Shown one piece after another: positions 7,261 to 58,304 of a stretch of 64,000 bases of DNA. This stretch comes from Zasmidium citrigriseum. Taxonomy: Eukaryota; Ascomycota; Dothideomycetes; Mycosphaerellales; Mycosphaerellaceae. Under the pieces are notes generated by a model. That model did not search any database, was not told where the DNA came from, and worked only from the letters and a program-made list of their open reading frames with translations. The number at the start of each line of letters is the position of its first letter. Within the stretch, counting starts at the first letter, position 1. The stretch covers positions 186,001 through 250,000 of the forward strand of contig NHNW01000033.1 in assembly GCA_002786025.1 (NCBI GenBank). Direction: 5' to 3'. The translations under genes were made by a program, and so were the position numbers.

Positions 7261-7283
7261 TTCGTACCCCGCTAGGGTATAAA
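7261..7283. repeat. Boundary palindrome of element 2, copy 4
   Basis: GTACCCCG arm, then CTAGGGTATAAACGTAAAAG. Lies at the end of the pol frame. Equivalent in position to the palindrome at 36,538 in element 1. Confidence 0.7.
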
Positions 7284-10200
7284 CGTAAAAGTACGGGATT
7301 ATCGATATCGTAATCCCTTAGAGGCGTATAGAGGTCTAGCATGTAACGAGGAGGTTATAGATAGTAATAAAAGGCGTATACGTATAGACTATCGTCTTAT
7401 CTATAAGGAGTATATCGAGGAAGATAAAGACGGCGACTAGGACTACGAGCTAGCGTAGAAGCGAAAGCCTATATCGTATAAGAGTACCCCGTTAACTTCG
7501 GCTTACGCGCGATCTAGAGAGTAATAGGTTTCTAAAAGTATATAGCCCTTAGTTATAAGGCCAATAGGTCGAATAGAGTATTAAGTAAGAATTTCGAAGA
7601 AAATCTAGCTAGTCGTACCTCTAGTAAAGAAAATCTAGCTAGTCGTACCTCTAGTACCCTTCCCTTTCTTTAGAGCTTAGCCGCGGGAGGCTTAACTACG
7701 GATAAGCGATACCTAGCTTAGTAAACTATAGGTCTTCTTCCTTAAGATTATTATTATCTTCCGGTTTATCCTTATCTTTAGCCTTAAATAGTCGCGGCTA
7801 ATTAGCTTTAGCGATATTAGGGGTAGGATCGCTAACATTCTCTTCTATCGTACGGAATAGGTAGGTAACCTTCTTAAGAAGATAGTACGCGAAGGTCCTA
7901 TCTATCTTAGTACTATCTAGTTCCTCTAGTAGATAGGAGTATAGCCGTTCTAGCTTCGAGAAGCTAGTTATGTCTCTTTCTCTAATACGGAAGGGACCTT
8001 TCTAGCGGAAGGACAACTTGTCGGATTTGTTATATTTGTCTTCGGTACGATATATAAGGACCGTATCGCTAGGCTAGAATTCCTCGAAGCTAATATTGTT
8101 ACGACTATTATAGTACTACTTCGTAGTAGCCTTTATCCGCTTTTAGCGAGCCTAGAGTTCCTTAAGTAATCCTTCTATTCGCTAAAGTTGTTTAGCGCGA
8201 TACTATAGAAGTGTTCTACGGTTACGAACTATACCCTAATCTCGGATAGTAGTAGTAGGGTATTCGACTTTAATAGGTAGTACTACTTTATACCCGAACA
8301 TAATAGTATAGGGAGATTAGCTAGTTCGACTATTAGTTATCGTTCGATCCGCCTAGGCAATAGTAGGAACCTATTTCCTCTACCTAGTTAGGGTGCTATT
8401 CGTAAGTTTAGTAAGGGTATCTAGTAACGGCCGATATCTAACTTTAACTTAGGTATTCGAATAGGGATTATATAGGGAGATACGAACTCTCTTAATACCT
8501 AGGCTAGTAAGTAGACGAGCTACCTTACTAGCGTACTACTTCGTATTATTAAGAATAATCTCTAGAGGGGTTCTATACCGGCAGAAGACATCGGTATATA
8601 GCTAGTCGGCGATAATCCGGGCTATTACTTTCTTAGAAGAGTAGTTAACATACTTAACTTCGATCTATCTACTAAGTACCTCCCTTACTACGAGTAGGCA
8701 CCTATAGGCATTAATATAGACAGGATCTATAGCCTATCTTTCGCTAACGAAGTTCTATATAGTAGGGCGGAGTTTAGCTAGCCGAGGGTGTCTATTCCGG
8801 TAGTTACATAGACCGTATAATTTAAAATGCTTAGAGTAAGATAGATATAGCCCTTCCTACTAGTATCTACGCTAAATTATATTAAACATAATGTTAGTGC
8901 TACGGTAGCTATTCTTCTCGTAGAAGGTATATAGGATCTAGTCCTATACGTAGGGTTAGTCTATAACACGCTATAATAGAGTATACTTATAAGGTTGCCG
9001 GAACAAGACACTACCTTAGACTACGAATTTCCTTAACTATAATACTAGTATACGGTATCGTTAGCGTATTATCCCTCGCGGGCGGCGGCGTTTTACTATA
9101 ATCTAGGCTAGCTATTAGGAAGTCTTATTATAATACTCCGGGTAATTAAGAATACTAGTATCCTCCTATAGAGGATTAGTTCGCTATACTAGGTATATAA
9201 GGTAGAAGTCGTCGTCGATTATAGCCTTAATATCCTCTTCCTCTACTAGCTCTTCGTAATCTTGTTCTATAGCCGGCTTACGAGACAGGCTATTAGGAGT
9301 AGAGTATTTAGTTCTAGGTACATATCGAACTTCGAAGGTAAATAGCCGAATCTATATAATCTATCGGGTAATAGCTATATTCGGTAGATCCGATAAAGCC
9401 TTATTAAGTTAATATATTAGCGTATTAGTATCTACTTCTAAGATAAAGTAGACACTAAACAACTATAGCTTTAGTTTCCGTAATGCTTTTAGTACGCTAA
9501 GGTATTCGCGTTTTCTAGTATTATACTTCTACTTAGGAGGACTAAAAAGGCTAGATTCGAATCGGACTAGATATCGAACTTTAGGGTTCTTCGGATCGTA
9601 TTATATAAGGACTACTCTAAAACCTTCGCTAGAAGTATTAACTATAAGTACGATACCTCCTCCTTCCTTAGAGTAGTCGATTAACTTTAAGGCTAGAGCT
9701 TCGACGAGGAGACGGGCAATAGTATCCTTAGTATCCTAATACTTCTATTCCTAGACAAACTCCGTATCCTTCCGTAGGAGTTAGAAGAGCGGCTTTCCTC
9801 GAATAGCTAGTTTAGGCACCTAGATCCGGAAGTATATAACTAGTCCTATCTAGATCCTAATATCCTTCTAGTAGGTAGGGGTAGGCTATTCTAGTATCTT
9901 TCGTACTCGTACTATATTAGGGTAGCGACTAAACTTATTAGTTATATAGCTTATAATCTTAACCTTCTTATAAAGAAGTTAGAGCTTCTTCCTAGCTATA
10001 GTACACCCGGCACGTTCTAGATCCGTAAGGACTTTATCGATTACTATAATATGTTTAACGACGAATCTCCGTAGGCTAGGCTTAATATATTCCCTATTAT
10101 AATCTATCTTCGGGCCCTTAATACTAATATCGTCTAGAAAAGGCCGAGCTCGATAGGAGATATAGGCTATTAGTACTTAAGTAATAGCCCTTATAAACTA

Positions 10201-11276
10201 AGTAACTAAGTTTGTAGCTCCTTACGGAAGAGTAGTCTATTAGAACAATCTAAGCGGCGTATCGAAAGCTATAATGTCTCTATAGGACTTATATAGAGTA
10301 ACCTAATTATATCCGGAGAAGATATCGATTAAGCTCGCTATCTTATACCTAGTAAAGTCTTCCGAGAAGCTATTAGTATCCGGGGGTAAGTTAGTATCTC
10401 GAATAGTAACCTTATTAATCTTAATAGTAGTATTAATAAGCCGATAGGTTCTCTCTAGCCTAGTAGACTTCTTCCTAACTAGGAAGTAGGGATTCCGATA
10501 GCTCGAGTAGCTAGATTCGATCGTCTACGCTTTAAGCCGTTCGCGAATTATACCTTTAACTATAGACCGAAGTAATAGGTTTAAACGGAAGCCTAGGTAT
10601 TACTATAGCGTATACGGTATCGTCCGAATATACTATAGTCTAATTACTTCTTCCCGAATTCGTCCTAGATACTTAAAGCTATAGGCTATAGTAGCTTCTC
10701 TATTATAGAGTATCTCGTAGATTATTTCTAGCTCTAGAGGGAGTAAGTCTATACCGATCTTAATAGTATCTAGACGTTCCTAGGTTAGCTAGCTTCCTCT
10801 AGGAATATTAGAAAACTTCTTAATTAAGTATTTCCTATTAAACTTACTAGTTCCTAGGGGTAGTATTACTTCGTAGGCTAGGCAATCGTTACGCTAGGTA
10901 AGGGATCCGCCGGGTTTTAATCCGTCGGTTCTCGAACTATCTTCCTTAATAGGGCGAACTTTCTTAGCCTTCCGTTTATATATAGTATATATATCGGCGG
11001 TTATACTAATAGGCGGGCGAGTATAAGCCTATCTCCTTAGTCTTCGAGCCGCTTTATTAATAGTTGCGGCGAGGAGAATGCCCTTAATATTATCGTTATC
11101 CTAGTCCTCGATATAGAGAAATCTAGCTTTAGCGATATTAGGTAGTAATTTAGCGGCGGTAGTAACGTTAAGGTAAGAATTTTCAACTCCCCTCCCTCTT
11201 TTAAATACCGCGAACGCGGATATAGAAGATCTAGAAGGTAGAGAATTTAATCCGGGAGCGTAATAGTTAATTCCTA
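7284..11276 (-). pseudogene. pol: Gypsy pol of element 2 (RT, RNase H, integrase), RIP-degraded
   Basis: Reverse transcriptase is recognisable on the minus strand around 10,000-10,150: the catalytic F-L-D-D motif is at about 10,129-10,140, followed by I-K-G-P-K, a signature shared with element 1. Both catalytic aspartates survive because GAC GAT contains no TpG. An integrase block near 8,520-8,560 reads P-x-E-I-I-L-N, where the catalytic Asp has become Asn, as in element 1. The rest carries dozens of TAG/TAA stops, so the gene is dead. A 29-base direct duplication lies near its 3' end (7,598-7,655). The clade resembles non-chromodomain Gypsy elements with a DDIPxKGPK reverse transcriptase. 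Confidence 0.75.
7598..7655. repeat. 29-bp tandem duplication
   Basis: Two adjacent copies of AAGAAAATCTAGCTAGTCGT plus nine further bases, identical across both units. The copies have not diverged despite the surrounding RIP, so the duplication probably came after most of the mutation. Confidence 0.7.
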
Positions 11277-11303
11277 CGTTCGTACTCTAGTAGGGTACGA
11301 ACG
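11277..11303. repeat. Boundary palindrome of element 2, copy 5 (gag-protease/pol junction)
   Basis: Near-perfect palindrome with outer arms CGTTCGTAC and GTACGAACG, the most complete copy in this element. It lies between the protease-bearing frame and the reverse transcriptase frame, the same junction as 40,799 in element 1. Confidence 0.75.
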
Positions 11304-14300
11304 TTAAAAACTTAGGTTCTCCGTTAATCTCGGGGCGTAAGCCCTTTAGAGGGTCCTAAGATCCTTAGGAATCCGAAGATTTATTATAAATACTATCCTA
11401 ATAGATAGTATATACTCCTACTAAGATAGGGGAGACTAGCGTAGGCATCGATTCCCCTATAATTTTAGGGCTAGCCTAGGACTACGAAGGATATTATTAG
11501 TTCGTTTATATCTAGTTATGTTAGCCTAGATACTAGTAAAGTAGACGGAATTCCCTCGCCGATCGGTAATAGTTCCTTCCTATACGCTATTATCGTAGTT
11601 AACGCTAGTTAGTCGAACCTTCCGATACTATAGACGTCCTAGAATAAATAGAGTAGAGGGAGAAACCGAAACTAAGAAATCCTAGAAGAAGGTTATACTA
11701 TAGATAGTAATCTTTAGATTGCGAGTTACTCTACTAAACTAGTATAGCCCGCTAGCTCCGCTTATATTTATGTTTATATTACCTATAATAGGAAGCCCGA
11801 GTTAGGAAGCTAGCTTATAACTAATAATATAGCCTTTAGATCCTTCGTCGATTAAGGCGCGGACGGTATATTTAATGTGTCTAATAGTAGCTATTACCTA
11901 AGGGCTAGGAGTAAGAACTAGATCCGTTATTACTCCGGAAAGATTAATTTTCGTACTATCCTTATATAACTTACTAGCCTTAGGTAGTCTAGAGTATCTT
12001 ATATTATCTTACGGGAGTTAGACGGCTATAGACATATATCGATTAGGTAAATCGACTTGTACTATAGCGCTCGTCTACGGTGTCTCCCTATACTTCTTAA
12101 GCTCGTCTATAAATTCGGAGTTATTAAGGATTCTCTACGACTAGTACTTCGTAAAGGTAGCGTTATAGGTTATTATATCGCCGACTATAATATTAAGAGG
12201 AGCATTTATTACCTGTTTGCTCTAGAATAGCTTGTCGTTTCCCCCGCTATAGGCGTAGACGTAATATAGAAATGCCTTACTCTTAGGCTTACCTCGGCGA
12301 GCCGTAACTAGTATGTTAAGAGGTACGGTATCCTTAAACTTATTATTACCCCTATCTGTTATAGATTCCTTACGCTAGGAATAGTTCTAGTCTATAGTCT
12401 AAGTTTGTGTCTAAGAATCCTTAGTTATATCCTTAACCCTAGGCTAAAGATCCGAGCGGCGAAGTTAGTTATAGGATTCTAGAAGGTTAGCGATAGGGGT
12501 ATTATTAGTACGAAGTTACCGAGTCTTAGCTACTAAGGACTACTTACGTTCCTTATTCTTAAGAATTCTAGTAGGTGTAAATCGTATCTTCGGAGTTAAG
12601 CTTATCTTCTCCTACGAGCGGGTAGTAGTATTAGAGTAATAGTCTCTATCTAGTAAGTACTTAGGAGTAACATAGAAGGATCTATATTTATACTAATCGA
12701 AGGTATCCGTAGCTTCTTCGATAATCTTAGAGCGTTGTATATACTAGAAAGTAGGATTATACGGTTCCTTAGATTCGCTAACCCCGGCGAAGTAGACCTT
12801 AGCCGACGATAACGTAGGTAGCGCTATAGAACTTAGAGTAGAATTTCTAGTAATAGAGCTATTATTACTTCTCTATTTAGCTAGAAACTTATTAGTATTA
12901 GTTCCCGTAAAGGCGATCTTCTTAGTAGGCTACTCTATTCGAATAGCTAGTAGTATGCTATATAACTTTAGTTTAGTCCTATCCTATCGCTAAGTTATAG
13001 ACTTCGGGTTATAGCTACCCTTCGGTCCTAAGTACTACTTGTTATCTAATAGGTAGTAGTAGCTAGTATTAAGGAATATCTTAAATATCTCGTAGGAGGC
13101 GCTAGTATAACTAGGCTTACCGTAGTTCTAGTACTTGTCGGCTATAGTAGGACCTATTAGGGGAGCTTTCCTCTACTATATAGCGAAGACTCTAGTATTA
13201 TATCTACTAGAGATATTTCTTATCTAATCCGTAGCTTAGGGGTTAAGTAGTATTACTCTACTTAGGTACTAGCGTTACATTATAGCGATTTCTATACGGT
13301 AAAGTCGATCGGTAAGTAAGCTAATCTTAGCATTATAAGAAGCCGGAGTAATATTCGAAATATAAGACAAGCTAACATCTAATATAGGTTATCTATCTTC
13401 GACAGACTTCTATAGAGTCTTTATTTATATAGTCGTCTCCTTCTAGGCAAGATTGTACCCTTTATTCCCTTCGATTAGGCGTATAGCTTTATCGAAGATC
13501 TTATCGAACTCCCGGAAGCTATACTCGCGCAAAGGGTATAGGTTAAACTTCTAATATAGCTTCCGCTATAACTAATTAGGGAGCCCTTAGAGGAATAGTC
13601 GGGTACGGGAGTTGTCTTCTATATCTACCTTCTTAATCTTCTCGCTTACGGTAATAAACTAGCGGTAGTAGCTAGACAAGTCGTCCCCTATAGAACGATT
13701 AGTACTAGTAAGTTGCTCTAGGTACTAGCGGGTTCTAAGGAGTATAAAGGTATTAGTCTAGGTAAACTCGCGAGCAACCTCGATACGAAACTTCTTATAG
13801 TCCCTATCTTCGTATTCTAGAACTCGAGTTACACGCGGGCGAGTTAGTAGGTCGGTGTTTAGTCGGAAGCGAGACAGCTTCTTAGTATCGGTTAAGTCGG
13901 GGTTATACTCGGCGATTAAGTTATTAAAGCGATCGATAAAAGCGGAGACATTCTTCCTATCGAAGAGAGGATTCTTACTTAAGCCTAGTATAGGCATTTT
14001 AGGCCGTAAGTTAGGAAGAACTAAAGCTAATTACTAAATAATAGCCTAAGGATCGGCCTACTAAGTAGTACTAGTAGAAGACCCGGTAGTCTAGCTACTT
14101 CCCCTACTATTACTATTACTAGCATTAGCGGTAGTAATAGGAGTAGCTATCTAGGAACGATAGGATCTCCCGCGGTTAAGAAGTAGAGGACGTAAAGTAG
14201 GGACTCTAGTAGTAGTACTTATACTCGCTCTAGTTAGTAACTATTCCGAGGTAGGAGTCTTAACCTCTTTAGAGCTAGAAGATCTGTCGGTAGTAGATAC

Positions 14301-14537
14301 CTTCGGCTTAGAAGGACTAAGGTCTACTAGTAGGTTACGGAACTCGGGGTTAGCGTTAGGATCTTCCTATCTTAAAGGTTAATCGATCGGAGACTCTTCT
14401 CCTAACCTAGACTCTTATAGCGGCGAGCTACTTATAAGAGGTAACTTAGATCTGCTTAAACTACTTCCTCTAGTAAAGTATGTAGTAGAAGGTAGTTAGT
14501 CCTAGGGGCTAGTAGTCGGAATCCTAGTAGTAGATCG
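11304..14537 (-). pseudogene. gag: Gag-protease frame of element 2, RIP-degraded
   Basis: The N-terminal gag block is open at 13,758-13,997 on the minus strand. It carries N-P-L-F-D-R, then a helical stretch, and matches the gag block at 43,630-43,869 of element 1 (N-P-M-F-D-R, with the same spacing to E-Y and R-F). A retropepsin active site reading A-L-I-D-E-G-S lies at about 11,821-11,860 with its aspartate intact, unlike in element 1. Many TAG/TAA stops lie elsewhere. The start was not fixed; the frame begins below the palindrome at 14,538. Confidence 0.65.
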
Positions 14538-14560
14538 TTCGTACCCTAGTAGGGTATAAA
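14538..14560. repeat. Boundary palindrome of element 2, copy 6 (5' of gag)
   Basis: GTACCC and GGGTA arms with centre TAGTA, at the upstream side of gag, as the palindrome at 44,441 is in element 1. Confidence 0.7.
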
Positions 14561-15690
14561 AGCAAGATATAAGGATTTGTTACTTGTTTAGTAACACGAG
14601 GGATACAAATTGGATACGAAAGCGTCCTTGTCAATTAAAACAGGCAGAAGTAATGTTTTTGTAAGGCTTTTACAACTTAGGTAACAATAAGACATAGCCT
14701 TAAGCCGAGTATAGTAATAGGGTATAGATATAGATAGATAGATATAAATCAAATAGTTTAAATAGCAAGCGTGTAATAGAAAGTAAGGATATAGGTATGT
14801 ATAGTACAAAGTAATATACAAGAGTAGTACTAGTTATAGTACAGGTGTAGTACTAGTAACGAGTTCGCTATTACTAGAAGTATAAGGTACTAATTAATAG
14901 TAGTTCTTCTTAGCGAGGTCCGGAGGTAAGGTTGTATATTAATACTTCCTTCCTATACGTATAGGCCTAATAGCTATTACTATGTTAGGCAGCTACGATT
15001 TAGTTAGCGGCTTCGATCTAGAGAGACAAACCTTATTCTAGGGATCGTAGCCTTACGAGTAGTTACCCCTTTCTAAGCTCCTACCTAGAACGACTCTTCT
15101 AAATGCCTTATCCTATAGCGGTTTCGAATCTTAATAGTCCGAAGGTAGTTAAGTCGGGGCGCGATCTCGGCTATCCGTAGATAGTATCTAATTTTAATAA
15201 AGGAGAGCGTATTACCGAGGGTAGTTATCGTGTTCGCGAGAAGTAGTTATTAGGGTTTCTACTATGCCTACTTCCGCCGAGTAGTAAAGTATAGCGTTGC
15301 CCTTCTAATTTCCTAAGGTTTCGAGTGTTCGTATAGTACGTGTTTAAGCTTCGCCTATTAGATACGTCTACCTAATAATATAATCTCTAGTTTTCCGTGT
15401 GTACCTATTTCGTTTAACTAACTACAGACTCGAGCCTTTTTCTATAGCTAAACTATTGTATCTATTATTCTATAGTGCTAGGTTGTTCGTACCGAAGCTC
15501 CTATATACCGAATATCGTATATCTCGTATTTCTTATATTCTTATATCTTTTCTTAATATAGCTACGCTAGCGTTGCTCTTATAAATACTCTTATTTATGT
15601 CGAATCTGTTAGGGTGCGATATCGCGAGGGCGTATTGTCGAACGCTCGAAGGTTAGAAGTTAGAAGAAGACGGGTATGTCTTCTACCCTC
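14561..15690. other. Gene-free stretch, possible leader/LTR of element 2
   Basis: This stretch keeps more CpA and TpG than its neighbours, mainly at 14,580-14,830. It sits where the 5' LTR and leader of element 2 should be. No partner LTR is visible in the window, so LTR identity is only positional. Two short open frames (14,588-14,821 and 15,399-15,584) are Leu/Tyr/Ile-rich and unlike any protein I know. Confidence 0.3.
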
Positions 15691-17047
15691 GTACTAACTA
15701 CTAAAAATATAACCCGGCGCCTATAGACTAACCCACCTATAGTCGCTAAGTAGGTAATAGAGCTAAAGAAGGGTTATAGGCGGTAGATCTTAATAGAGGA
15801 TGTAACATAGCTCTATTAGTAGGTTCGGATATATAGAGGTATTCGTATATACTAAGGTACTTCCGAAGGAAGCTATAAAAGAAGAGAAGAAGTTTAGTAT
15901 ATAGGATTTTACTATATCTATCTATATCGCATAATATATAAGAAGCTAGTCGTATATGTGTAAAGTAGGTGTCGTAATAATAATAAGGGTACTCGTAGCT
16001 CGGAGGTTAAAGGTAGGCGCTAGTAGCCTCGGCATTTACCGTAGAAGCTAGCTAGCTAGCCTATACTAGGCTTAATATAGTAGGCTTAGCGATAACGACC
16101 CGCGATTTCGAAATTATTAGACGAGGTATCTACTCTATACTTTAACGCTATCTTACTATTAACGCTCGCTTATCTTTTTATAGTTAAGCGTATAATAATC
16201 TTTATTATAAGGAGCTCGTATAGTATAGCTAGCGTAGCGAGTAGCGAGTAGCTCTAGTAGGTAGTCTACTAAGTATTAAAGTAGTAGTAGGAGCGTTCCC
16301 GTAGCTTCCGGAACTTCTAGTAGGAAATTTATAACTATTTCCTTCCTCCTTCCTATACTATTATTTACGTATACTATCTAGCGCGTTTCTATACTATATT
16401 ATAGTTAATACTCCCTCTTATACCTACTCGTAGTACTAGCCGAGCCTTTTCTACTACCTACCTCGACTCTAACGACAATTTATCGTTTACTATATCGCTA
16501 ACGAATATACTACGGCGTTCTCTACGATATTAAGCGGTAGCTTCGTTATAAGAGCCTACGAATAATAGTCCTTCGTTAAGGACGCGTTTACGAGTCTCTA
16601 ACTCCCTCGATAGCTAGCGTACGCCTATATATAATACTAATAAAGATAATACCCGAGTAGCTATAATATTTACGAAGAGAGAGGACTACTATATCTTCGA
16701 TCGAGAATATAAGAAGTAGTTTATCGACTTCTATAGTTACACCCCCTATACTAACCTAATATATTTACGAGTCGGAGAAGAGAAAGCGAAGAAGCGATTT
16801 ATATAATAGGGCTCTACGAAAAAGGCTACGGAATAGACAGTATTCGAAGAGGGTATATAGATCTCTAACGGCGAGCCTAAGGTTATCTATAAGGTCTATC
16901 GTACCGTACTAAAGTACCCGAGTATTAATAATATAGGCAACTCTAGATTAAAGCGGCACCTAGAGAAGAAATCTTATAAGGACTTATAGGTATCGACTAT
17001 AAGTAGAAGGAAACGCTAGCTCGACCTTAACGAGGGATTTCGAGTTT

Positions 17048-31739: not shown

Positions 31740-32386
31740 TAAAGCGCTAGAGCGAAGAGTAGACGAGCTAGAGTAGGTATTAAAGAAGTTATTAATATCT
31801 AGAGTACTAAAACTAAGCTAGAGCGTAAGCGGCTATATTAATACTATTAATAGTATAGCGAAGGAAGTTACTAAAGGATAGGTAGTAGTCTACTTTCTTA
31901 ATATTACGCCTAATCTATAACTTTAAGTAGTTAAAAGACTACTTAATAGGATTAAAGTCTAGTAAGTAAGGTAGTAGATATTCGAGTCGAATACTAGCTT
32001 AATTATATAACTCTTAAACCTTCTTACTATAGTAGATTACTATATTATCTATAATAAGATAAGAGCCTCTCTTAAAGTAAGGGATAACGTCTAGTTTAAG
32101 CTAGATTTTAAATACTTTAGCGTTAATAGTTCCTTAGTATATAAGAGGGTTTAGAAGGTATCTACTATCTATAATTATAGCTAGTAGAATAGACTACTAT
32201 TTAGATCTCTTTATGCTACTTTTATCTCTATAAGAGGTATTAATTAGTAAGTATCTATACTTCCGCTAGCTAGTCCTTTTATTTAATCTACTCTTATTAA
32301 TAATATAAACCCTATAAGTAGGTATTATCTTCTACTTCTTACGCTACTTATTACGTAGCTCTTAACTTACTTTAAGGGCTACCTAT
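31740..32386 (-). pseudogene. Tc1/mariner transposase, C-terminal part (DDE_3), RIP-degraded
   Basis: Minus-strand translation gives the catalytic half of a Tc1/mariner-type transposase. Y-Q-G-T-I-N-A-x-V-F, with Gln as TAA, is followed by L-I-I-D-N, which holds the second catalytic Asp. Then R-L-E-Y-L-x-P-Y and D-F-N-P-I-K follow. The last motif should carry the catalytic Glu; Lys at 31,942-31,944 fits a GAG-to-AAG change at a TpG site. The frame is cut at 32,386 by insertion of Gypsy element 1 and resumes at 45,204. Confidence 0.75.
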
Positions 32387-32827
32387 TGTGGGAGGGCAAC
32401 ACCGACCACACAATAGTAATCTTGTTCCCTCACTAGCTACGAGGCCCAAGATGCTTCCAGGTCCTCCTACGAAGGAGGATTGTCGATAGCCTCGTTGAAG
32501 GAAGGAATCAAACAAGGAGTAACAAGAGAAGTTCAAGGCTCGCTAAGACTAAAGCAAGAGAACAAGGCAAGGCAATCAAGGTAGAAAACAAGGCTCAAGC
32601 AAGGGATAACACAAGGCTCTCAATTTAATAGGGTCAAAATCACAATCTTCTTCTCGCAGAACGCTTCAATTCGAATTCAGTACATAGCATGTGTTATATA
32701 AGAGTCTGTTGCCTGCCCATAAGAGATCTCATCTTAAACCCCTCGCCACAAGATAATAGGCCACTTCCCCGGATCAGAATCAGGCTGGGAACCCCTAAGT
32801 TGAAGGAAGTAATGTTGCTCGCTAACA
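32387..32827. repeat. Left LTR of element 1
   Basis: 441 bp. Differs from 44,759-45,199 at 16 positions by my alignment, every one a CpA/TpA or TpG/TpA difference. The element reads on the minus strand, so this is its 3' LTR. Confidence 0.9.
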
Positions 32828-33191
32828 TCCCTACCCCATCTTAGGTGTCTGTCCCTTAGACACCTCCTTTCCTACGCGCGAAGGCAACTACCCATGGCAG
32901 CTACCGCTAGTATTTCCCGCTCGCGCTCGCGCCAGCGCAGTATAAGAGGCATCCAAACTTCCATTCCAAACCTTTTCTTCTTCCCCACTGGACGATGAAA
33001 TGGTGTCGCCGCACTGCTAGAGAGCAGTCGCGAGCGTGCTAACGGATCATTGTATCAATAGGGCCACTATGGTTCCTAGGATCCAGAGATTCCTTATGCA
33101 AGGCAACAACCCCAAAAGCAATCGCATCGTGAATTTTGACCCATGGCCCATGAATAACAAATGAAATCTTCATCAAATCCCCAATCAATAA
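32828..33191. other. Non-coding stretch between third ORF and LTR of element 1
   Basis: Follows the last palindrome in element orientation. No ORF or clear motif; a polypurine tract would be expected next to the LTR but was not pinned down. Confidence 0.4.
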
Positions 33192-33215
33192 TTTCCTAGC
33201 CTATGGGCTAACAAA
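33192..33215. repeat. Boundary palindrome of element 1, copy at 3' end of ORF3
   Basis: Arms TAGCC(C/T) and GGGCTA, flanked by TTTCC and ACAAA. On the minus strand the frame of ORF3 reads GTT TGT TAG into it, so the palindrome supplies the stop. Confidence 0.8.
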
Positions 33216-36200
33216 CCGTTTCCCACCCATTCCGCCCATTCCATCCCCTTCATCCATACAAGATGACACCTCTAGCATTCTTGGTCGCCTCATCGATATC
33301 CTTAGAAGCAGCAAAATCCTTAGTTGGCGCAGGTTGCTTGTCCTAGTCGCAGTTGTTCGCGAAGCAGCTGTTCTTGCCGTATGCCTCTCGCTCCAACTGC
33401 TTAACAATCTTCCACTTACGCTTGAAGACCTCCATAGCACGGTTTCTCTACTTATTACGCATCTTCTTAAACTAGCTTGGATCCCACCACTTGATGCATT
33501 CCTACTAAACCTCCGGATCATTCTATCTACGCCTCCCTACTAAAGCATTACTCACTGGGCCAAGCCCATCGAGTTGAACAGCAGCAGGGAATCGATATAG
33601 AGGCAATCCATAGCGAACAGGATGTCCAGAAGGAGTTGAAGGAGTAGGTTCCATGTCGCGATGGGAACGAGAAAGATCATCCTAGTTGCTAGCTTTAGCA
33701 ACCTCAAGAATTCTAGACTCCCTGTCGAAATGCATGAACTAGGGGAAGATAGTACGTCGCTTGCCCTTCCCCTTCAATGCTCCATACGGAAGTTGAGGCT
33801 TGCTAACCCGCACACCTAAAGCAGAGCATAGCTAAGGCTTCCACTTTATGCGGTACTTGTTAAGGAATTCATTAGGCAGCATGGTCTTTGAGATTGCCTC
33901 AACATAACCATTCTTAATGCTACCCTTCTCCTACATAAGCTTGTACTACTCTTCCATGTGCTTGTGCATGCCTACAACCATCTTAGTGTAGTCCTTCTCA
34001 TCTTCGTCATCGAGAGAAATAGTACCTTAGATCATGTTCGCTCCGATGCCTTTAGTAACCATCTTCTAAACATTCGAATCCAAGTGACGAAAGCTAGTAT
34101 TAGACATGTTCTTCTCATTCTGGCCTGTAGCAGGATGCTAGTACTTGCCATAGTATCTATAAGCAATGAGCTCATGAATGGCTATGTTACGATTCTAGTT
34201 CTCCTAACTGTCGTTATTCTCTAGGCGAAGAGCAAGGTATATAAGCTAGTAGATAGGATCTTAGCGAGCAATCTGCTAGGTGAGGGAGAACTATATGTTG
34301 CGAATCTAGCCTTGGTTGTTCGAATCATTGATTCTGCGTTAATGCTAGTGGTACATATCGAACTCCTTGTCCATAAACTAAAGAATGCCCTTGTCCTTCC
34401 ACCATTTGAAGACATTGGGAATGTTAAGAGTGCCTTCATTATCCTACTTCTGTAAGTTGTTGTCTCCGAAGCCAATAGTCTTCGCAATCTTGCTCCTACT
34501 AACAAAGGTGATTCTCTTTAGGCCTGCAGATTGAAAGGTAGTGTTGAAGCGATAGACTCGTAAGGAATCTCCTGGAACTCTCGGTCTCCTGTCTTAGCTA
34601 AACTAGAATAGGTAGGCTTCTATCTTTGCCTTCATTCCTCGCTTGTCCTTAGCCAAGGTCTTAATTCTCTAAATGACTAAGGCACGAGTTTAACTGTGGC
34701 CTGTTATTATGCCTAATCCTCTATTCGTAAGAAGGCGAGTGTGCAGAACATAGAAAGGATGAAGATTGTTTAACTCCTTGAATGCCGTATTGTATATAGC
34801 AAGAGCTCGATCCTAATCCTCGTATGTCTACTTCTTGCATGCACTCTTATCGCTTAGAGCATAAATAAATGCAGGCTTAATACTACTGTGGCATTCGTAG
34901 GTGATAGGCTGTTACTAAGGAGACTTCGGGGAAGACATAGGTTGCTCTTCTTCATCCTCTTCTTCTTTAATGTCTCCGAGATCTCCCCTGCTACTACTGT
35001 CTCTACCTCTCATAGATCTAGAGCTATTGGCTCTACTATGGCGAGTTCCTCGCTAGCTTCCTGCCTTTAAGCGGGTAAATGGGCCTAGTAGGCCTCCTAG
35101 AGAAGGTGACTGTTGTTAAGGTAACTTGGGATTAGAGAAAGCTAGACTAGGCTATCTCGAGTTCGAGCTACTTCCTCCTAATCCTCCTCGAATAGGCAAT
35201 CCTCTACTAGGAGGAGTGGATTTAATGGTTCTCGCTCTGCCCTGCTTCTTCTACAAGAATGGCCTCTTTCCCTTCGAGTCCACAACAATCTTAAAGTTGT
35301 ACTTATCGAAGAGAGCTTGCGTAGCTTTCGGAAGAGGATTCTTGTGACATGCTATAGCTAGAACAGATACCTACTTCTCGCTACTAGGATTCTTCTCTCT
35401 TCTCTCCGAGAAAGGATGACTATAAAGCTTAATGTAAGTTCTCGCCTTGTTAAAGTCATTGGTAGTGAATCCTTCATTCGCACGAATTCCTCGGCTAGTA
35501 AGGCTTAGCCTATAGAAGAAGACATCTAGAAGAGCATAGACATTCTAGGTACTGCGATTGGCATTAACGAAGGTTTGAGTAGCCCTCGCAATGTTGGCTA
35601 CCTTCTAAACCGTAGCGAACATGTCGGAGTTCTCGTAGTCTTCTCCCTATTCCCTCTTAATGGTGTTCCTCGCAGCTTAAATTCTCTAATTCGTATCCCT
35701 GCCCATCTTAATTAAGTTGTCGAGAGCAGGAAACTCCTTGTCGAATAACTTGTTCTTTAGAACTTTGCTGCTAAACTTAGTTCCTAGCCACTCTTGCAAC
35801 TCCTCGAAAACTGCGAGGACAAATTAAGAAAGTGAACTTGAACTAGCGTCGAGGCGCTCGAACAGATTACGTGTTGCAACAACTCGGTTTAATCTAGCAT
35901 ATGCCTATTTGAATGCCTGAAGGAATTGCTCCGCGGTAGTCGATTGTGAAAGGATGCGAACTAGTAGATCTTGCTCGTTCTAATTGCGAGGAGTTGCTTT
36001 AAGAACCGTAACGAGAGACTAGTCGCCTCCTAGTGTGCTTAGAGTTCCTAACATTAGTAATGGTAATCTCTACGGATGAAATCTTTGCTGCTAATATACC
36101 TTAACAGAGAGGTTTGCCGCCTCGATGGAAGGTTCCACCTTAGCAAAGGGTCGCTTTAATTCTCTCTGGAAGAAGGTCGTTTGCTCGGAAGGTGGAAGAA

Positions 36201-36537
36201 TGCTCTCGGGCTCTAGAACAGTTAATGTTCGATAGTTAAAGGAAGAGGTTTGTTCTAGAAGTTTGCTAGGTTTATATACCTTCGCAGAAACAGGCTTACA
36301 TGCATCTGCAGAAGATTCTGTAGCCTTACATGCATGCTTATGTTACGCTTCAGATTCATTGTCGTAATCTATTGTCGATTTAGTATTACATGCGGCATAT
36401 AATGTTCTAGATTCACCTTAGCACGTGCTAGTTCCTCGCATGTGATTCCTTTTAATGCAAAGCCAATCCGTGAAAGCAATGTGTGCAAACAGGGCGTCGA
36501 AATATCTAGGTGATGTAAGAAACGTAAAGGTAAACCA
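33216..36537 (-). pseudogene. ORF3 of element 1, about 1,100 codons, function unknown
   Basis: A minus-strand frame with scattered RIP-type TAG stops and otherwise protein-like sequence. N-terminal third (about 35,450-36,050): helix-rich, charged, reminiscent of gag-like or coiled-coil domains. Middle (about 34,930-35,300): Ser/Pro/Gly/Arg-rich linker. C-terminal third (about 34,000-34,900): a globular-looking block with N-V-F-K-W-W-K near 34,400 and A-x-N-R-A-M-E-V-F-K-R-K-W near 33,430. I do not recognise any domain; it is not an RT, integrase, envelope, chromodomain or tyrosine recombinase as far as I can see. A related frame lies at 1-2,968 in element 2, so the gene is conserved between two elements. 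One TGA near 33,266 is not explained by RIP. Confidence 0.55.
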
Positions 36538-36561
36538 TTTCCTAGCCCGTAGGCTAACAAA
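36538..36561. repeat. Boundary palindrome of element 1, pol/ORF3 junction
   Basis: TAGCCC arm, centre GT, AGGCTA arm. One minus frame reads ATT TGT TAG into it, as at the other two junctions. Confidence 0.8.
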
Positions 36562-39500
36562 TGGCAATTCGGGAAATAAGGCATACAATCGATCTAGAAT
36601 CGTTTCTCTTTTACAGAAAGGAAGTTCTTCGTTCGTAAATGAGTGTTATTAATCGTGTAGAGGTATCTAGTAAGTTATAGCCTTCGAAATAGTGCGATAC
36701 CGCGGGCTCTTATACTCTTCAGGAGGTTAGGGTTCATTTCCTAGGAAGGTTTTGCTTTCTCTGGTTCCTTCTCGTTACAGGCATAATCTATAGCTTCCTC
36801 GAAAAGCATCTTCTTCACTCCGTAGGGTAGAGCTCCCCCTACGATAGCATGACTCTTCTCTATCTACTAGGGTGCTAATAGGGCATCATCCTAGAACACT
36901 TCCCAATCTTCCTACCTAATATTACCCTCAAAATACTCCTCCTCACTATTATTATCCTCCTCTTCCTCTCCTACCAATTCCTATATCTACTGCTTTAATC
37001 CATCTAGTCCCTGCAAATCTCCCCTATTTAGATCTTCTATTAATTCCTTAAACGAAGGCAATTGATCTTCTCGCAACATCGCAGCCGCACGCAAGACTCG
37101 CCTCGTAGTAACAACTTCCTCCTTCTCGCCTTCCTCCTTTCCTACTTCTTCTATTTCCTTCATCCTCTAACCGATTAAAGTCTTCCCTGCTTCTCTTACT
37201 ATTAAACCTAACCTCGCTTTTAACTCCCTTTCCCGCTCTAATTCCTGCGGCCCTTTAGCTACCACCCCATCTCGGACAAATTCCCCTTTAAAATTTCCTC
37301 TCCCCCTCGTTCTTCTCGCAATAGGCTCATCCTCCTTAACCCCTTCTATATTAACTTCTTCTTCTTTAGATTCCTCATCGTTAGCTTCTTCTCTATTAGA
37401 AACCATTCCGCTATACTCTCCCTTAATACCGCGTTCGCGGAAGGGAAGAACTCGTTTCAGCCTTTCCTAAGCAAAGGTCGTTCCTATTAATGTAGTGCTA
37501 TCTAGTTCCTCGAGCAGGTAGGTTGTAGTTGCTTCCTTTACTTTCCGAATGCGATATGGCCCTCTCCATCGATATGTAAGCTTGTGCGATCGAGACATCT
37601 TTAGATCATCCCTATAAACTATAACAAGATCACCCTTCTTAAACCTCTCGAATAATGCATTGTTCCTCTCATCGTAGTAATCCTTCGCCTTAGCTCGCAA
37701 TCTTTTCATTCTGCTAATTAATTCTTCCTTCTTACCCTCAACTCTCTCTAGCTGCATCGCTCTGTACTATAACAACGTTGCTCGATCCTTTACTTCTCCC
37801 TAATCGTAGTTCCTAAAGCTCGGGTATTTAGCCTCAATGGGCAAGATTGTCGTGAAAGCTAGAAACAGTTCCGTAGGAGTCTTGTTTGTAAGCGAGCTTA
37901 CTATTATTCGATTAGCCCAGAGCAATAGATGAACCTATTTCCTCCACCCTTTCCCTGTTCCCCCTATTAACTTCGACAATGCATCCAAAATTAGCCTATG
38001 CCTAACTTCGATATGCCCATTTGCTCTTGTATTGTAGGCTAAGATCTTAATCCTTCTCACACCTATGCTAAGCAACAACTTCTTAACTTCCCCCTTATGC
38101 TGCCTTAATCTATTAAGAATGATTTCCTTAGGCACCCCATACCTGCACATTACTTCTTAATAAAGGAAGTCCGCAATCTAGAATGCTATTAACTCCTTCG
38201 TAGCACAATCTCTAGTCTTTCCTTCCACCTAGCCACAGAATGTCTCCCTCGCTATTATAATGTATCCCTTCCTATCTACATGTATAGGATCTGCTACCTA
38301 CTTCCTTCTAACAACTTGCAGGTAACTCGGATACAACTTAGTTGCTCGCTTCGATCCATTCCGGAAGTTGCATTCTACGTAAGATCGACAATGCTAGGAG
38401 ACTTCTAACTACAAGCCTTCCTACTAGTATCGAGCAGCAACCTTCTGAAACGTTGCTTCTGGTCCTCGGTGTCCCCCTTCTTTATACATTGTATACATAA
38501 TTACCTTCCTCGCATCCACATTATCGATAACCCTCTACAATAGGCTATTTGGCTTCGTCTACCTCTACAACTTCTTCCCCTTTACAACATACTTCCTCGC
38601 TTGCTTCTACAGACTCCGATATCTTGACCTGCTTATTCCTGGGGGTCTCCTTATCTTCGTAATAATAAAGGCAAGCTGCTAATGCTCTTCGCTATACGAA
38701 TTATCTAGAACATCCCCCTTATCTAAGATATTACCCTTATTATCAACTTCTTCAACTCTTCTCCTTCTAGCGAAGAATAAAGATGCATCCACAAACTCCT
38801 TAATATCTTGCTCTTCTTCTATCTCCCTTACTTCCTCCGTAGTTAGAGGCTTCCTTAACAACCTATCTGTAGCAGAATTCTTCTTCCTAGGCACATGCCT
38901 TACCTTAAAGGTAAACAATCGAATCCAAGCCACCTATCTTACTATCGAAGAGTTCGGCAAATCCGAGGCTAGCCTGTTCAATTAATGAACCAGAGTCTTC
39001 GCATCCGTCTTAATGAAGAAGAACACCCCAAACAGCCAAGGCTTCAACTTCTTTAATGCCTTCACAATCGCAAGGCATTCTAGCTTTCCCGTATTATTCC
39101 TTCCCTCCGAAGGATTCTATAGTCTACTCTCATACCTGCAGATCTTCCGAACTTCCCCTTCCATCTGCATTAACACTGCTCCCTATCCTTGCAGGCATGC
39201 ATCTACTGCCATAATAATATCCCCTGCATTATCCGAGTAATCTACGGTCTTTAATGCGGGTGTACTCGTTAGAGTAGCCGCAAGCACATTCTTCGCCTTC
39301 TTCTAATCCTTTCCCTATAGGAATGTAGCATTCTTCCTTATTAACTTGAAGAGAGGATTCGCCTTAATGGCAAACTTCTTAATGAAGAATCTGAAGTAGG
39401 TGCACACTCCCACAAAACCTCTTACTTTCGAGATATTCTTCGGCTCTAGCTACTCGAGGATCTTCTCTACTTAATGGGGATTTAGCTTCCTTCCTTCCTA

Positions 39501-40798
39501 ATTCACAACGTATCCCACAACATCTATCTCTATTGTAAGGAAGTAAGTTTTCCCCCTATTAATTGTTAGCCCTGCCCTCTCTATATCCGCTAACACTTCA
39601 TCTATCCATATAATGTGCTTAACAACAAACCTTCGCATTCTAGGTTTAATCTCCTTACCCTCGTAGTCTGTCTTCGGCCCTTTAATAGGAACATTATCTA
39701 CGAATAGCTTGCATCGATAAGAAATGTGATCGAGAAGAATTACATCTATAATCCTGTAGCACTAACCTACAGAATTCGTTGCTCCCTAAGGAAGTATTGT
39801 TATCCTATACATTCCAAGAGGTGTAGAGAATCTAGTTAAATCTCTATAGCAAATGCATAGGCCGAACTAATTATATCCTAAGAATAGATTAGCAAGGGTG
39901 AAAACTCTACATCTAGCAAAATCCTCGGAGAATCTATCGGTCTTAGGTAGCAAATACCTATCCCGCATAGTAACTCGATTAATCTTAGTTGCTGCATTAA
40001 TAAGCTAGTAGTCATCCTAGGGCTGCTTCTTCTTCTTTGGATCCACAACCTTCTTCTTGTTTACATTCTTCTTCACAAGGAACCATGGATTCCGGTAAGC
40101 TCCGCAACATGGCTTAATTACCCTATTCTTTAGCCTTTGGCGTAACATCTCTTTAACAATTGCCTTTAAACTCGGGTGCAGTTTAAATCCAGGATGCTAC
40201 TATAGTTCATGCGGAATAGTAGCAATTGGCTAAGGTCGAGCAACTTCCGGTTTCACTCTCCCAATGTGAGTAAAGTCCTATGCGAGAACCTTCTCCCTAT
40301 TATAGAGCATCTCCGTGAATAACTTCCATTCTCCCTCCTTTAGATCCATCCCAACCTTTAAATCTTTTAATCTCTGCTTAGTTAACCTGCTTCCTCGCGC
40401 AATTTCCGAGAACTTCTTAATTAAATACTTCCTATCAAATAGCCTAGTTCCCTCTAGCAACTTCGCTTCCTTCGCTAACATCTCCTTCTTCTAATGAATG
40501 TTCACCCATAGCGAATAGCTCTTCGTCATAGATACATCCGCATCGACAGGTCGTATCTTGTTAGCCTTCCTTTTGTAGAGAGTAAAGGCTCTAGGAAAAT
40601 CTAGTCTAAACAACGAATGCACTCCCGGGAATCCGGGCAATGACCACCCTTTCTTACGTTTCTCGGCATTTACGATATTGTTAATAAGTCCCTGCCTGTA
40701 AATCGTGCTTAGTTAACGATCCTAGCTAAGAATGCGATCCTCTGAAACCGATAGGAACGCGTGATGTTGATTTGCCTCGGCAAACTTGCCTCTAGGGA
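36562..40798 (-). pseudogene. pol: Pol of element 1: RT, RNase H, integrase
   Basis: Reverse transcriptase near 39,650-39,710 reads C-K-L-F-V-D-N-V-P-I-K-G-P-K. The second catalytic Asp is Asn (AAT at 39,693-39,695), a TpG-to-TpA change. RNase H follows: F-F-I-K-T-D-A near 39,010, then R-H-V-P-R-K-K-N at 38,885-38,910. Integrase has the H-C-x3-V-E-C finger remnant near 38,375. Its first Asp lies in P-I-H-V-D (38,270-38,290). Its second Asp is Asn at 38,112-38,114 (E-I-I-L-N). Its Glu survives in G-H-I-E near 38,010. The integrase C-terminal barrel, with Y-R-W-R-G-P-Y-R-I, is at 37,467-37,757. A charged tail follows (37,167-37,406) with no chromodomain. Stops are mostly TAG where Gln or Trp is expected. 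Confidence 0.85.
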
Positions 40799-40822
40799 TT
40801 TCCTAGCCCGCGGGCTAATAAA
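40799..40822. repeat. Boundary palindrome of element 1, gag-protease/pol junction
   Basis: The unmutated form: TAGCCCGCGGGCTA is a perfect palindrome. The upstream minus-strand ORF (from 41,018) ends GTT TAT TAG, with TAG being the first bases of the palindrome. Confidence 0.85.
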
Positions 40823-43800
40823 CCCCATCATCTTCCTTATCCTTAGGATCCAGCTCAACTATGCACCCCGCAATAATCTCCTTATCTTCATGAACTCTCG
40901 GAACCCCTTCTACCTCCCATGTGATGTCTAGGTAGATAGAAGGCCTAACAAACCCAGCTACATATCCCCTTCTAATCCTTGCGCTAGCAAAGTTCCTACT
41001 ACCTGTCTTCTCGAGCACTTCTTCTATCGTTTGGCATGCCGTTCGATCATTTCTAGCTAAGAAGGTTACAGTCTTGCTATTCTCATTCGCAATGGTTCCT
41101 TCCTAGCTTCCATTATTACAATTTTTCGTAAGAAGTCGAGTCTTTATAGTCTATGGCCTCCCGAGAATTAAGGGCATTCTAGGTTAATCTGCAACAAAGA
41201 AATCTATATAGTAGGTAACTCCAAAAACATCCACTAAGACATTCTTACTTACTCCCTTGAAAACCGTAATCCCTCCGAGCCCTTGTATAGTTATGTTCGA
41301 CACAGGCTGCATAGGCAATCCTGCATTTCGCAACACTGTTTAACTTATTAAACATGCCTTACTCCCTTTATTAATTAATCCTCTGAAGCAATACTTCTTG
41401 CCTACTCCTAGCTTTACAATTACCTATAGGCTTGGAATAAGAGCATATGTCTACTTTACCGTAGAAAGGTTATATTCCTTATTAACTCTTCCCTTCTTCA
41501 TTTTAGTAGGCAGCGTAGGTAACTTGCTATCGTATTCGACAAGTCGACAAGTTGTCTAGTTCGGAAGTTAATTACCTGCCTTTATGCATCTTCCTATCTA
41601 TCCTCCCTATACGGAGAATCCACTTCCAATTACAACTGCTTGCTCCCTTTTAGCCTTCGCCTACTATTCCATTACGCTTATCCCTTGCAAGATTTCTTCG
41701 GCTTCTTCGTAATAAGTGCTTTCCTCGAGAGGAATGCCTAGTTCTACCTCCTTATCTAACTCTCGTAGATACTTGTATGTGGCTTGGAAGTAGAATGAGC
41801 TCGATCCTTTCATCGTTCCTATCTACTTTCTCCGATGCGCTCTCTAGAATCTTAATGCCTCCCTAAATGCTTCCGTGTTCTNNNNNNNNNNNNNNNNNNN
41901 NNNNNNNNNNNNNNNNNNNNNNNNNNNNNNNNNNNNNNNNNNNNNNATCCGTAGCAGCTTGTTCCCCAAACCTATACTCCTTCCTATATCCTTTTAATCT
42001 AACAGTCTTCGGCTTCTTCTTGTTCGGGGGATTGACAGGTCTCGGCCCAAGTTTAGGTTCAACCCTCAATTCTTTACTCAATCCTTCCGAGAACAAGATT
42101 CCCTTATCCTCCATTTTCTTATCTTTATCTTGATTACGCCCTTAAGTCTGAGATTGAGACTAAGACTAGGAAGCTCCTTGCTTCGAAGACTCCGCTCTTA
42201 ACGCCTTATTATGTTACCGCCTTACTACATCAATCCTTTCCCTCTCTTCCTCCATTACTTTATCTAACCTCTCCTTCTTAGCTTGCTTCCTGCGATTATT
42301 CTTAAGGATCACCTTCGGATGATTACCTGGCTTGTTAACTCGATTCTCTCGCTAGTTCGGCTTCAATAGATTAATAGCCTTCTGCTTCCCTTTGTGTAAC
42401 GGCATCCTCGCAGGCATTATAGTCCTAATGGGTTCCCCTCTTCCTTCATCCGTAGGAATCTTATTAACAGCTAAAACTCTTGCTCCCTAATCTTTATGCT
42501 GCAAATCCTTAAGCGCAATAATAAACTCTTCCTTATCTAGGTAGCTATCCCTTTATAGAGAAGCTAAAGTTCCTCGTGCCTAGGCATTCTTCGAAGATTC
42601 TGCAACATTGCTTATATCTCCTCTCTCCCATCCCTATTCCTTCAACTTGTCCAGCATTAGGCTTCCGCTATACTAAAACACTCGCTTTCCAGTCTTGCTT
42701 TCTAATACAGGAATAATATACTTTAGCTTTGGGTAGTTCGCATCCTATGTGAAGCGAATCACTTCCTTGTTTAGACTGTTAGGCCCTCTAGTATACCATC
42801 TTCCCTTCTCCTAATGGCATTGCTTCGAATGCTCTAGGAAGCTGTACTCGCTGCATTCTCTAGCAAAATGATTCTTGTCACCGTAGAGCTAACAGACTCC
42901 CTGCATGTAATCTAGAATGTCCCTCTTCTTCCCCTTGTACCCTTTACTTCTATTTGCCCTATTCTAAGCAGCAAAGCTGTTCCATTCCCGCAATGACTCT
43001 TCTCTTCTCGCCTAATCCGCATTGACAGGCTAAACTATCGAGGGGTTCACTACATTCGTAACCTTCTCTATAAATGCGAGCCCCTTTCCGAAGTTTAGGG
43101 TCATTTACTCTAGTCTCTAACCCATCTGCTCAATCTGCTCCTTAATCGCATCTTGCCTATCCTTCGCAAGGTACTTGTCTTGTGATTTAATAGCAAAGGG
43201 CGAAGTCTTCTAACCTGTTACCCTCTCCTTCTGCGAATCTACAATGCCTTACACCCTATTAATAATTGGCTCTAGCCTATATACTTGTCTTACCCCTTCT
43301 TGTCCACGAATTAACTTCTGAGCTTTAGCATAGATCTTCTCGAACCTCTAATAACTCGCTGGATTGCTGGGTGAGATCTTAAGTCGTGTGTAGACCTTCT
43401 TCGCAATACTAACTAGCAAACCTTTCAGGAATAACCTGCTCTTCTAATTCGGAGAAAGCTCTCCTTCTAGCAATTTGTTGCAGATTGCTCTAAACTATCT
43501 GTAGTATTTAGCAGGATCAGATTTAATAGGCAATAACTTCTTACAAAACTTGCCTAGATACTTAACTATACTCGTTTGAGCAATGCTATCTCTACTAAAG
43601 TACTCCTGTAGGAAGTTCTTCCAGAACTCCTAATAGTTTCCTTCCTCGAATCTAGCGATTGTCTTTACTGCATCTCGCGTATGCGTGTCGCAGTTCCGAG
43701 CAAACCTCTTTAACTTGCCTTTATTATTTTCCAATGGCGCATATTCTTCAATTAGCGCCTTAAATCTTTCGAGGAAAGCAGTTGCCTCACTCCTATCGAA

Positions 43801-44400
43801 CATTGGATTCTCTATCCCTCTAGGAGCTAGCCATCTTCTTCCTCCGAGAGTAGTAACAAGTTGCATCATCTCTTCTATTGCTTGTAGCCTCGCTAATGCC
43901 TTGTCCTTCTCGATTCCGGATTCGGCAGCAGATGGCTTAGGATTAATATCTACAAGGGGTCGTTTGCCTTAGGCCTTTACACCTAACCCGCTACTGCCTT
44001 CTCCCGTATTATTAGCTACAAAGGCATCTACATCACTCGATTCGCTTACAACCCCAGCAGGGTGTAGCGGATCTCGCATGGTTCGAAATGCTAGCTCCAT
44101 AGGAATTAGTTAGCTACTCGGAGCATAGGTAGAAACCTCCCCCTAAGCAACCCTAGCATTATCTATAGCTCCAGTTCCAGAATAGGAATTAATTAATCCA
44201 AAAAGGTAGTCGTAATTAATGTTAGTAGCTTCTCCCTACTTAATCCTAAGCTTAGAGCGGGAAGTTGCGGGCTCGTTGCTAGCTAGGTAGAATCCTCGTA
44301 GGTAGGGCAATTGTCGGGGTTAAAGTAATGCCCTCTCTAGAAGATTTTCTCACCTAAGAATGTCGAGCTCGCCTAAACCTCCAGAAACACGTGCTCGTCG
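40815..44400 (-). pseudogene. gag: Gag-protease ORF of element 1
   Basis: The gag N-terminal block is open at 43,630-43,869 and shares N-P-M-F-D-R plus downstream spacing with element 2. A zinc-knuckle remnant lies at about 42,840-42,900: C-x2-Y-G-D-K-N-H-F-A-R-E-C, where the second Cys is Tyr through a TGC-to-TAC transition. The retropepsin site near 41,360-41,385 reads G-L-I-N-K-G-S, the catalytic Asp being Asn (AAT at 41,370-41,372), again TpG to TpA. The ORF ends at the TAG inside the 40,799 palindrome. In-frame TAGs and a 65-base N run (41,882-41,946) interrupt it. The start is uncertain: in-frame ATGs lie at 44,100 and 44,079, with coding-like sequence further upstream. Confidence 0.8.
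41882..41946. other. Assembly gap (65 N)
   Basis: A run of 65 N within the gag frame of element 1. The frames on both sides agree with gag coding, so the true gap is probably short. Its length may be arbitrary. Confidence 0.99.
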
Positions 44401-44440
44401 CAAAATCCTTAGCGAAATGGTAGTTCTTCTTGCCGATGGA

Positions 44441-44464
44441 TTTCTTAGCCCATAGGCTAGGAAA
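44441..44464. repeat. Boundary palindrome of element 1, 5' of gag
   Basis: TAGCCC arm, centre AT, AGGCTA arm. Its outer flanks (TTTCT and GGAAA) are fully complementary apart from one base, unlike the three copies that end an ORF. It sits about 300 bases inside the 5' LTR in element orientation. Confidence 0.8.
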
Positions 44465-44758: not shown

Positions 44759-45199
44759 TGTGGGAGGGCAACACCGACCACACAATAGTGATCTTGTTCC
44801 CTTACTAGCTACGAGGCCCAAGATGCTTCTAGGTCCTCCTACGAAGGAGGATTGTCGATAGCCTCGTTAAAGGAAGGAATTAAATAAGGAGTAACAAGAG
44901 AAGTTCAAGGCTCGCTAAGACCAAAGCAAGAGAACAAGGCAAGGCAATCAAGGTAGAAAACAAGGCTCAAGCAAGGGATAACACAAGGCTCTCAATTTAA
45001 TAGGGTCAAAATCACAATCTTCTTCTCGCAGAACGCTTCAATTCGAATTTAGTACATAGCATGTGTTATATAAGAGTCTGTTGCCTGCCCATAAGAGATC
45101 TCATCTCAAACCCCTCGCTACAAGATGATAGGCCACTTCCCCGGATTAGAATTAGGCTAGGAACCCCTAAGTTGAAGGAAGTAATATTGCTCGCCAACA
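44759..45199. repeat. Right LTR of element 1 (5' LTR in element orientation)
   Basis: 441 bp, same length as the left LTR with no indels. By my alignment 11 of the 16 differences are mutated in this copy and 5 in the other, all C-to-T at CpA or the complement. Confidence 0.9.
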
Positions 45200-45203
45200 C
45201 TAT

Positions 45204-58216: not shown

Positions 58217-58304
58217 TAATTATATATAATAATAAAAGATAGATATACCTTAAAAGGCTATCGAAGAGTAAAATAAAAGTAGTACGTATATATTAAACTA
58301 GCTT

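Follow-up and report, generated by a model that had tools for sequence, protein, structure and literature searches.

Fungal Ty3/Gypsy retrotransposons carry long terminal repeats (LTRs) around gag, protease, reverse transcriptase (RT), RNase H and integrase, encoded in that order. Because fungal nuclear messages normally carry one gene, it is not obvious how genes lying beyond pol in such an LTR element are expressed. Here we examine a 64,000-nucleotide stretch of the Zasmidium citrigriseum genome (contig NHNW01000033.1, positions 186,001 to 250,000; hereafter the window), in which a 12.8-kb Gypsy-like element, element 1, resembles these retrotransposons in its LTRs, its gene order (with protease, RT and integrase presumed), a match to RNase H and a decay like that of repeat-induced point mutation (RIP). 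It differs from them in an open reading frame (ORF) downstream of pol for which no Pfam family scored above cut-off, in the extra segments found in its relatives, families 2 to 4, and in palindromes standing at the borders of its segments. No such layout of border palindromes in a retroelement was found in searches of the open-licence literature, which is not proof of its absence from print.

Element 1 lies on the minus strand and contains four near-identical palindromes, J1 to J4. J1 (44441..44464) stands ahead of gag within the 5' leader, about 300 bases from the LTR and roughly 340 from where gag probably starts; J2 (40799..40822) lies between gag-protease and pol; J3 (36538..36561) lies between pol and ORF3; and J4 (33192..33215) follows ORF3, before the 3' LTR. 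A first-pass annotation of the window had placed palindromes at exactly these four positions. The core that it described, TAGCCC...GGGCTA, is complete at 40804, but the other three sites depart from it near the centre; a core pattern with a 12-base gap was also tried and gave 0 matches. What all four share is a 14-base core, TAGCCYRYRGGCTA, at 33197, 36543, 40804 and 44446 and nowhere else in the window. A repeat search independently united J1–J4 as one four-copy family, with spacings of 3346, 4261 and 3642.

Across the genome (44.4 Mb in 148 contigs, to which labels such as C3 and C76 refer), the core TAGCCYRYRGGCTA occurs at 49 places, compared with 1 for its reversed control. All except two, on C15 and C95 and without a match to element 1, fall within element-1 copies (47/49). 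The 25-base form TTTRTTAGCCYRYRGGCTAGGAAAT, searched with up to 3 mismatches, gave 61 matches at 50 places (11 on both strands) and none in the control; these divide into 13 at J1, 12 at J2, 12 at J3 and 13 at J4. Aligned copies or the window account for 49 of the 50, and C72:2876 was assigned to the family by spacing, so that none of the 50 places lies outside family 1, as against 2 of the 49 for the core. The palindrome is thus neither scattered at random nor abundant as a stand-alone repeat, and in a search of viral contigs it was found in 0 contigs.

Individual sites are also kept from copy to copy, as the first-pass annotation had proposed to check. J1 is retained in 12/12 other copies aligned there (one with an altered core base), J3 in 11/11 and J4 in 12/12, while J2 is present in the 10 copies aligned across it and deleted in one further copy, on C148. 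Spacings recur among family-1 copies as 3346 and 4261, followed by 3642 or 3716. One copy, on C144, has a J2–J3 spacing of 4458 owing to a local duplication of about 200 bases of the pol start just past J2 (C144:56743-57158). The window copy is 74 bases shorter than several others between J1 and J2, and contains a run of 65 N at 41882-41946, at the gag/protease frame changeover. We do not read the agreement among family-1 copies as a sign of selection. Six close copies (C144, C148, C60, C76b, C3 and C9) differ from the window almost only by transitions, with 0–1 transversions each over the parts covered, and their agreement says little on selection because it follows recent copying and RIP-like mutation. 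Full-length copies of a second family-1 subfamily differ from the window by 49–51 transversions. The palindromes themselves show CG to TA changes between copies.

More distant relatives carry a palindrome of their own. The RT piece of element 1 matched 53 places in the genome, 13 in family 1 and 40 diverged at 40–58% amino-acid identity, and its ORF3 piece matched 34, 12 in family 1 and 22 at 27–42%. One such relative, belonging to a second family, occupies the left part of the window on the minus strand, with its 5' LTR at 15708..16065, RT at 9937-10191 (52%) and an ORF3 homologue at 92-397; it runs out of the window to the left. A second-family copy on C90 gave two LTRs and both element ends, which match the window's left element at 88–90%, whereas a blastn comparison with element 1 (E 1e-6) gave no match. 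This complete-looking copy (C90:133853-151069) is nested in a family-1 copy; on C100, by match coordinates, a family-1 copy appears to sit within a second-family element.

In a scan for stable hairpins, one shape recurred where element 1 would predict it, at about 11300 and 7280 in the window and past the last ORF of the C90 copy; other stable hairpins were present and did not recur. The motif derived from these three sites, CGTTCGYACCC...GGGTRYRAACG, stands at the same landmarks as in family 1 and at extra ones, all on the minus strand: P1 in the leader (14535..14563, C76:200536; 2 substitutions from the motif), P2 between gag-pro and pol (11276..11304; 0 substitutions), P3 after pol (7258..7286; 0), P4 between segments A and B (5704..5732; 3), P5 between segments B and C (4082..4110; 3), P6 between segment C and the ORF3-like segment D (2966..2994; 1) and, beyond the window, P7, the last palindrome, at C76:185395. 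P6 has no counterpart in other family-2 copies among the matches listed. The motif is also found in both C90 ends, and three weaker matches lie in the window at 26614, 45634 and 52121 (3–4 substitutions). With the 5-base centre fixed, window positions 1-16100 contain 6 matches, compared with a mean of 0.14 and at most 2 in 50 Markov shuffles. In the whole genome, TTTAYACYYNNNNNRRGTRYGAACG gave 160 matches when 2 mismatches were allowed, against 5 in the control (about 100 of the 160 were listed, and one site can count on both strands). A 4-base centre was discarded for this pattern (1 match, control 1); the 5-base centre as written fits instead. Segments A–C may be genes, a claim that we do not make because the window copy, which is heavily mutated, shows no clear coding frame in them. 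The confinement of the palindrome to its family, its occurrence at the same four places in copies and the presence in a second family of another palindrome at matching places support the first-pass proposal that it punctuates ORF junctions, and extend it beyond what was proposed.

Two further groups emerged with the pattern TTNNYASCCN{4,5}GGSTRNGAA, drawn from both families, which gave 183 matches (80 and 103) against 0 and 0 in the control; the first 100 of the 183 were listed, symmetric sites being counted twice and family 1 included. Among the matches listed, family 3 comprises copies on C73 (near 448-459 kb), C120, C94, C43, C20 and C130, and family 4 two copies on C6 and probably others on C64, C75 and C61, groupings that are drawn from palindrome spacing and RT identity alone. 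A few listed matches, such as C75:317727 and C23:6870, could be assigned to no family. The intervals between palindromes are about 3259, 4082, 1553, 1620 and 4688 in family 2 (the last split into 1116 + 3572 in the window copy only), about 4010, 1638, 1054 and 3500 in family 3, whose first palindrome was not seen among the matches listed, and 3255, 3999, 3088 and 3477 in family 4. Between pol and the ORF3 homologue, families 1 to 4 thereby have 0, 3, 2 and 1 intervals bordered by palindromes, a count that is not independent evidence because the palindromes themselves define the intervals. The fixed place of RT and ORF3 relative to the palindromes is independent evidence: in 10/10 diverged elements checked by coordinates (C76, C57, C90, C5, two on C73, C120, C94 and two on C6), RT falls in the interval that follows gag-pro, and the last interval contains the ORF3 homologue. 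For C94, the post-pol palindrome was not among the matches listed.

Comparison of the families reveals how the palindrome has changed. Each site consists of a conserved half (TTCCTAGCCC in family 1, TTCGYACCCC in family 2) and a looser half. The arms read A-G-CCC with GGG-C-T in family 1 and A-C-CCC with GGG-G-T in family 2, the pair near the centre having changed on both arms from G-C in the one to C-G in the other. The centre is 2 bases long in family 1, 3 in family 2 and of both lengths in family 4, within one element on C6.

Taken together, these features point to a conserved boundary element, which we would tentatively describe, at somewhat less than even confidence, as a hairpin that forms on a multi-gene RNA and flags its segment borders for processing or end formation. 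On this reading the palindrome is a conserved cis-acting element of a lineage of Gypsy-like LTR elements; it stands in the leader and past the last ORF, at the gag-pro/pol junction, downstream of pol and between any further segments, and it is alike within one element and altered on both arms together between families. Folded as a short hairpin on the multi-gene RNA, it may be cut or otherwise read so that the segments are separated into usable messages. The hairpin is preferred because the borders lie in the leader and the tail as well as between ORFs, because the centre tolerates changes in length and because the change between families is symmetric; variation of the centre by one base within one C6 element would be tolerable for a loop. 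The spacings fixed in copy after copy are further in its favour.

Computed folding agrees with this picture in part. When the junction RNAs of the window were folded, as the first-pass annotation had suggested, J1–J4 all took one shape, comprising a lower stem, a 1x1 mismatch, an upper stem and a tetraloop (z-scores: J1 −1.8, J2 −2.3, J3 −4.7, J4 −1.9), and two of them, J2 and J3, belong to the most stable hairpins in element 1. In family 2 folding was uneven, with z-scores of −4.2 for P2, −3.0 for P3 and −3.5 for P7. Several results weigh against a hairpin in RNA. J1 and J4 lie outside the 14 most stable hairpins of element 1, and P1 (−1.6; −0.6 in C90), P4 (+0.2), P5 (−1.0) and P6 (−1.0) fold no better than chance. 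Pairs in the flanks showed no covariation in a permutation test (family 1, p 0.17–0.42; family 2, p 0.75–0.96), and a covariation score over 12 sequences was reached by 206/500 shuffles and exceeded by a one-column slide. Strand preference is mixed, the coding strand being the more stable at J2–J4, P3, P4 and P7 and not at J1, P1, P2, P5 and P6. The halves stand in inverted order at J1 (relative to J2–J4) and, in family 2, at P4 and P7; the first and last sites of both families therefore face opposite ways. In family 4 the first and last sites look oppositely oriented too, less clearly, and the cases are too few to weigh. Stems extended through the site-specific flanks, convincing by eye, failed the permutation test and were rejected. 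As judged from sequence, the evidence supports a symmetric boundary element with which RNA and DNA readings would both be compatible.

The coding regions of element 1 bear on a further question, namely whether the palindromes act on translation. All features are on the minus strand, and ORF ends were placed by stops common to covering copies. The 5' LTR (44759..45200) and 3' LTR (32383..32828), whose ends are approximate, share a 300-base stretch that is 97% identical. Gag-protease spans 40818..44109, with gag (start provisional) in one frame and the protease part in another; pol spans 36675..40799, its start likewise provisional, and ends at TAA 36677; and ORF3 spans 33250..36419, between a common TAA 36420 and TGA 33252. 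RNase H matched Pfam PF17917 in the window piece 38985-39116 (E 1.4e-7) and in the C148 copy (E 5.5e-17), and with the LTRs this match makes Gypsy-type LTR elements the class in which element 1 is best placed. The names protease, RT and integrase are presumed for pieces lacking a family match: the protease region had no Pfam match, the short RT pieces none in Pfam or the PDB, and the integrase region a sub-threshold match to SH3_Tf2-1 (E 0.023), its 196-aa piece hitting no integrase family in Pfam. Open pieces of ORF3 had no Pfam family above cut-off, CPL being sub-threshold (E 0.005). Among candidate proteins of similar length, neither an ORF3 piece (101 aa) nor the integrase piece (196 aa) found a homologue; weak PDB matches of a second piece to ARP9 and SNF2 were judged not meaningful. 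An Rfam search of the window gave 0 matches above the gathering score, and a tRNA search found none.

Coding-frame stops common to the copies are TAG except for the TAA 36677, TAA 36420 and TGA 33252 already given; TAG accounts for 12/12 such stops in gag, 3/3 in pro, 20/21 in pol and 17/19 in ORF3. TAG as a sense codon was rejected as a first choice, since saturation of the preferred RIP-like context explains its near-exclusive use: in element 1, CA followed by G has become very scarce where T or C precedes it (TCAG 12 vs TTAG 161, CCAG 29 vs CTAG 230). RIP-like decay (CpA to TpA) over window positions 32900-44800 is likewise strongest at CA before G, after T or C. According to the first-pass annotation, the palindromes supply stop codons, entered on the minus strand through a phrase GTT/ATT-TRT-TAG. 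The phrase is literally present at three sites, but 40817 is the only one at which it ends a live coding frame: there the protease frame enters the TAG of J2 (40817-40815). That TAG is common to 10/10 other copies covering it, and the gag-protease frame truly ends there. At 36556 the TAG is in a different frame from pol, and the one at 33210 shares the frame of ORF3, but that frame has already been closed by TGA 33252. J3 lies about 115 bases beyond the end of pol and J4 about 35 beyond that of ORF3, and therefore J1–J4 are spacer features, of which J2 alone doubles as a stop. Nor is a stop common to the families, since the family-2 core between gag-pro and pol holds none in the gag-pro frame, a TAA lying just before it and a TAG just after.

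These observations make it very improbable that, as first suggested, the hairpin terminates one ORF and favours a restart at, or readthrough into, the following one. J2 would suit such a role, having an in-frame TAG and, in family 1, pol following in the same frame, but J2 contains two in-frame TAGs, J1, J3 and J4 provide no such stop, and family-2 gag-pro and pol are in different frames. Termination and reinitiation also fit poorly with the presence of one palindrome in the leader and another after the last ORF. The annotation's interpretation as a whole is thus partly supported. A fairly unlikely but substantial alternative moves the palindrome to DNA, where a dimeric protein of the host or the element would bind each site and internal promoters or insulators would allow the segments to be transcribed separately. 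Two-fold symmetry, the occurrence of both orientations and the lack of a strand preference all suit this explanation, and all sites of one element are alike, as if bound by one reader. A rigid dimer would, however, badly tolerate centres of 2 bases, 3 bases or, in the C6 family-4 copies, both, and promoters are not expected in the leader or after the last ORF.

Also unlikely, though still a serious alternative, is a mark for recombination or template switching: reverse transcription or repair would add, remove or exchange segments as cassettes, and would do so at the palindromes. The differing interval numbers between pol and the ORF3 homologue (0 to 3) are what such exchange could produce, and exchange among sites would keep the palindromes of an element alike; yet those intervals are defined by the palindromes themselves, and no examined copy had lost exactly one palindrome-to-palindrome segment. 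Finally, the sites are short, palindromic, numerous and found in both orientations, as would be expected of a tiny palindromic insertion that had spread without a role into the spacers of an ancestral element. We consider this quite improbable, as hardly any lie outside these elements, positions match in diverged families and the arms have changed together.

Two other repeats were observed in the window. A 173-base direct repeat at 21862-22034 and 28653-28825 (97% identical, 6.8 kb apart) perhaps represents the LTRs of a third element without a palindrome, and a 32-base A+T-rich near-perfect palindrome lies at 58284-58315.

A palindrome kept at each border by diverged families, when the surrounding DNA compared is no longer alignable, is a concrete candidate cis-element, and RNA ends, transcription starts or protein binding would be expected to map to it. 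More speculatively, and with rather low confidence, these elements may form a hitherto undescribed group, large Gypsy-like retroelements with multiple genes whose coding segments would each be a cassette flanked by a palindrome that is particular to the family and has one reader; the cassettes could then be expressed separately and gained or lost as units. Parts of this arrangement have parallels elsewhere. The PstI palindromes of Neurospora and the GC clusters of yeast, which are mitochondrial and GC-rich, are likewise palindromes between genes and have been proposed as RNA processing marks; those are scattered in mitochondrial DNA, whereas the palindromes described here are nuclear and confined to retroelements. 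Transcription-regulating sequences of coronaviruses and arteriviruses similarly occur once in the leader and again ahead of every downstream ORF, but the repeat found here is palindromic, also follows the last ORF and is known from DNA alone. Integron attC sites resemble it in being imperfect palindromes at gene-cassette borders with a tolerance for loop length; unlike in integrons, no integrase of the attC type was seen here, and cassette exchange is hypothetical.

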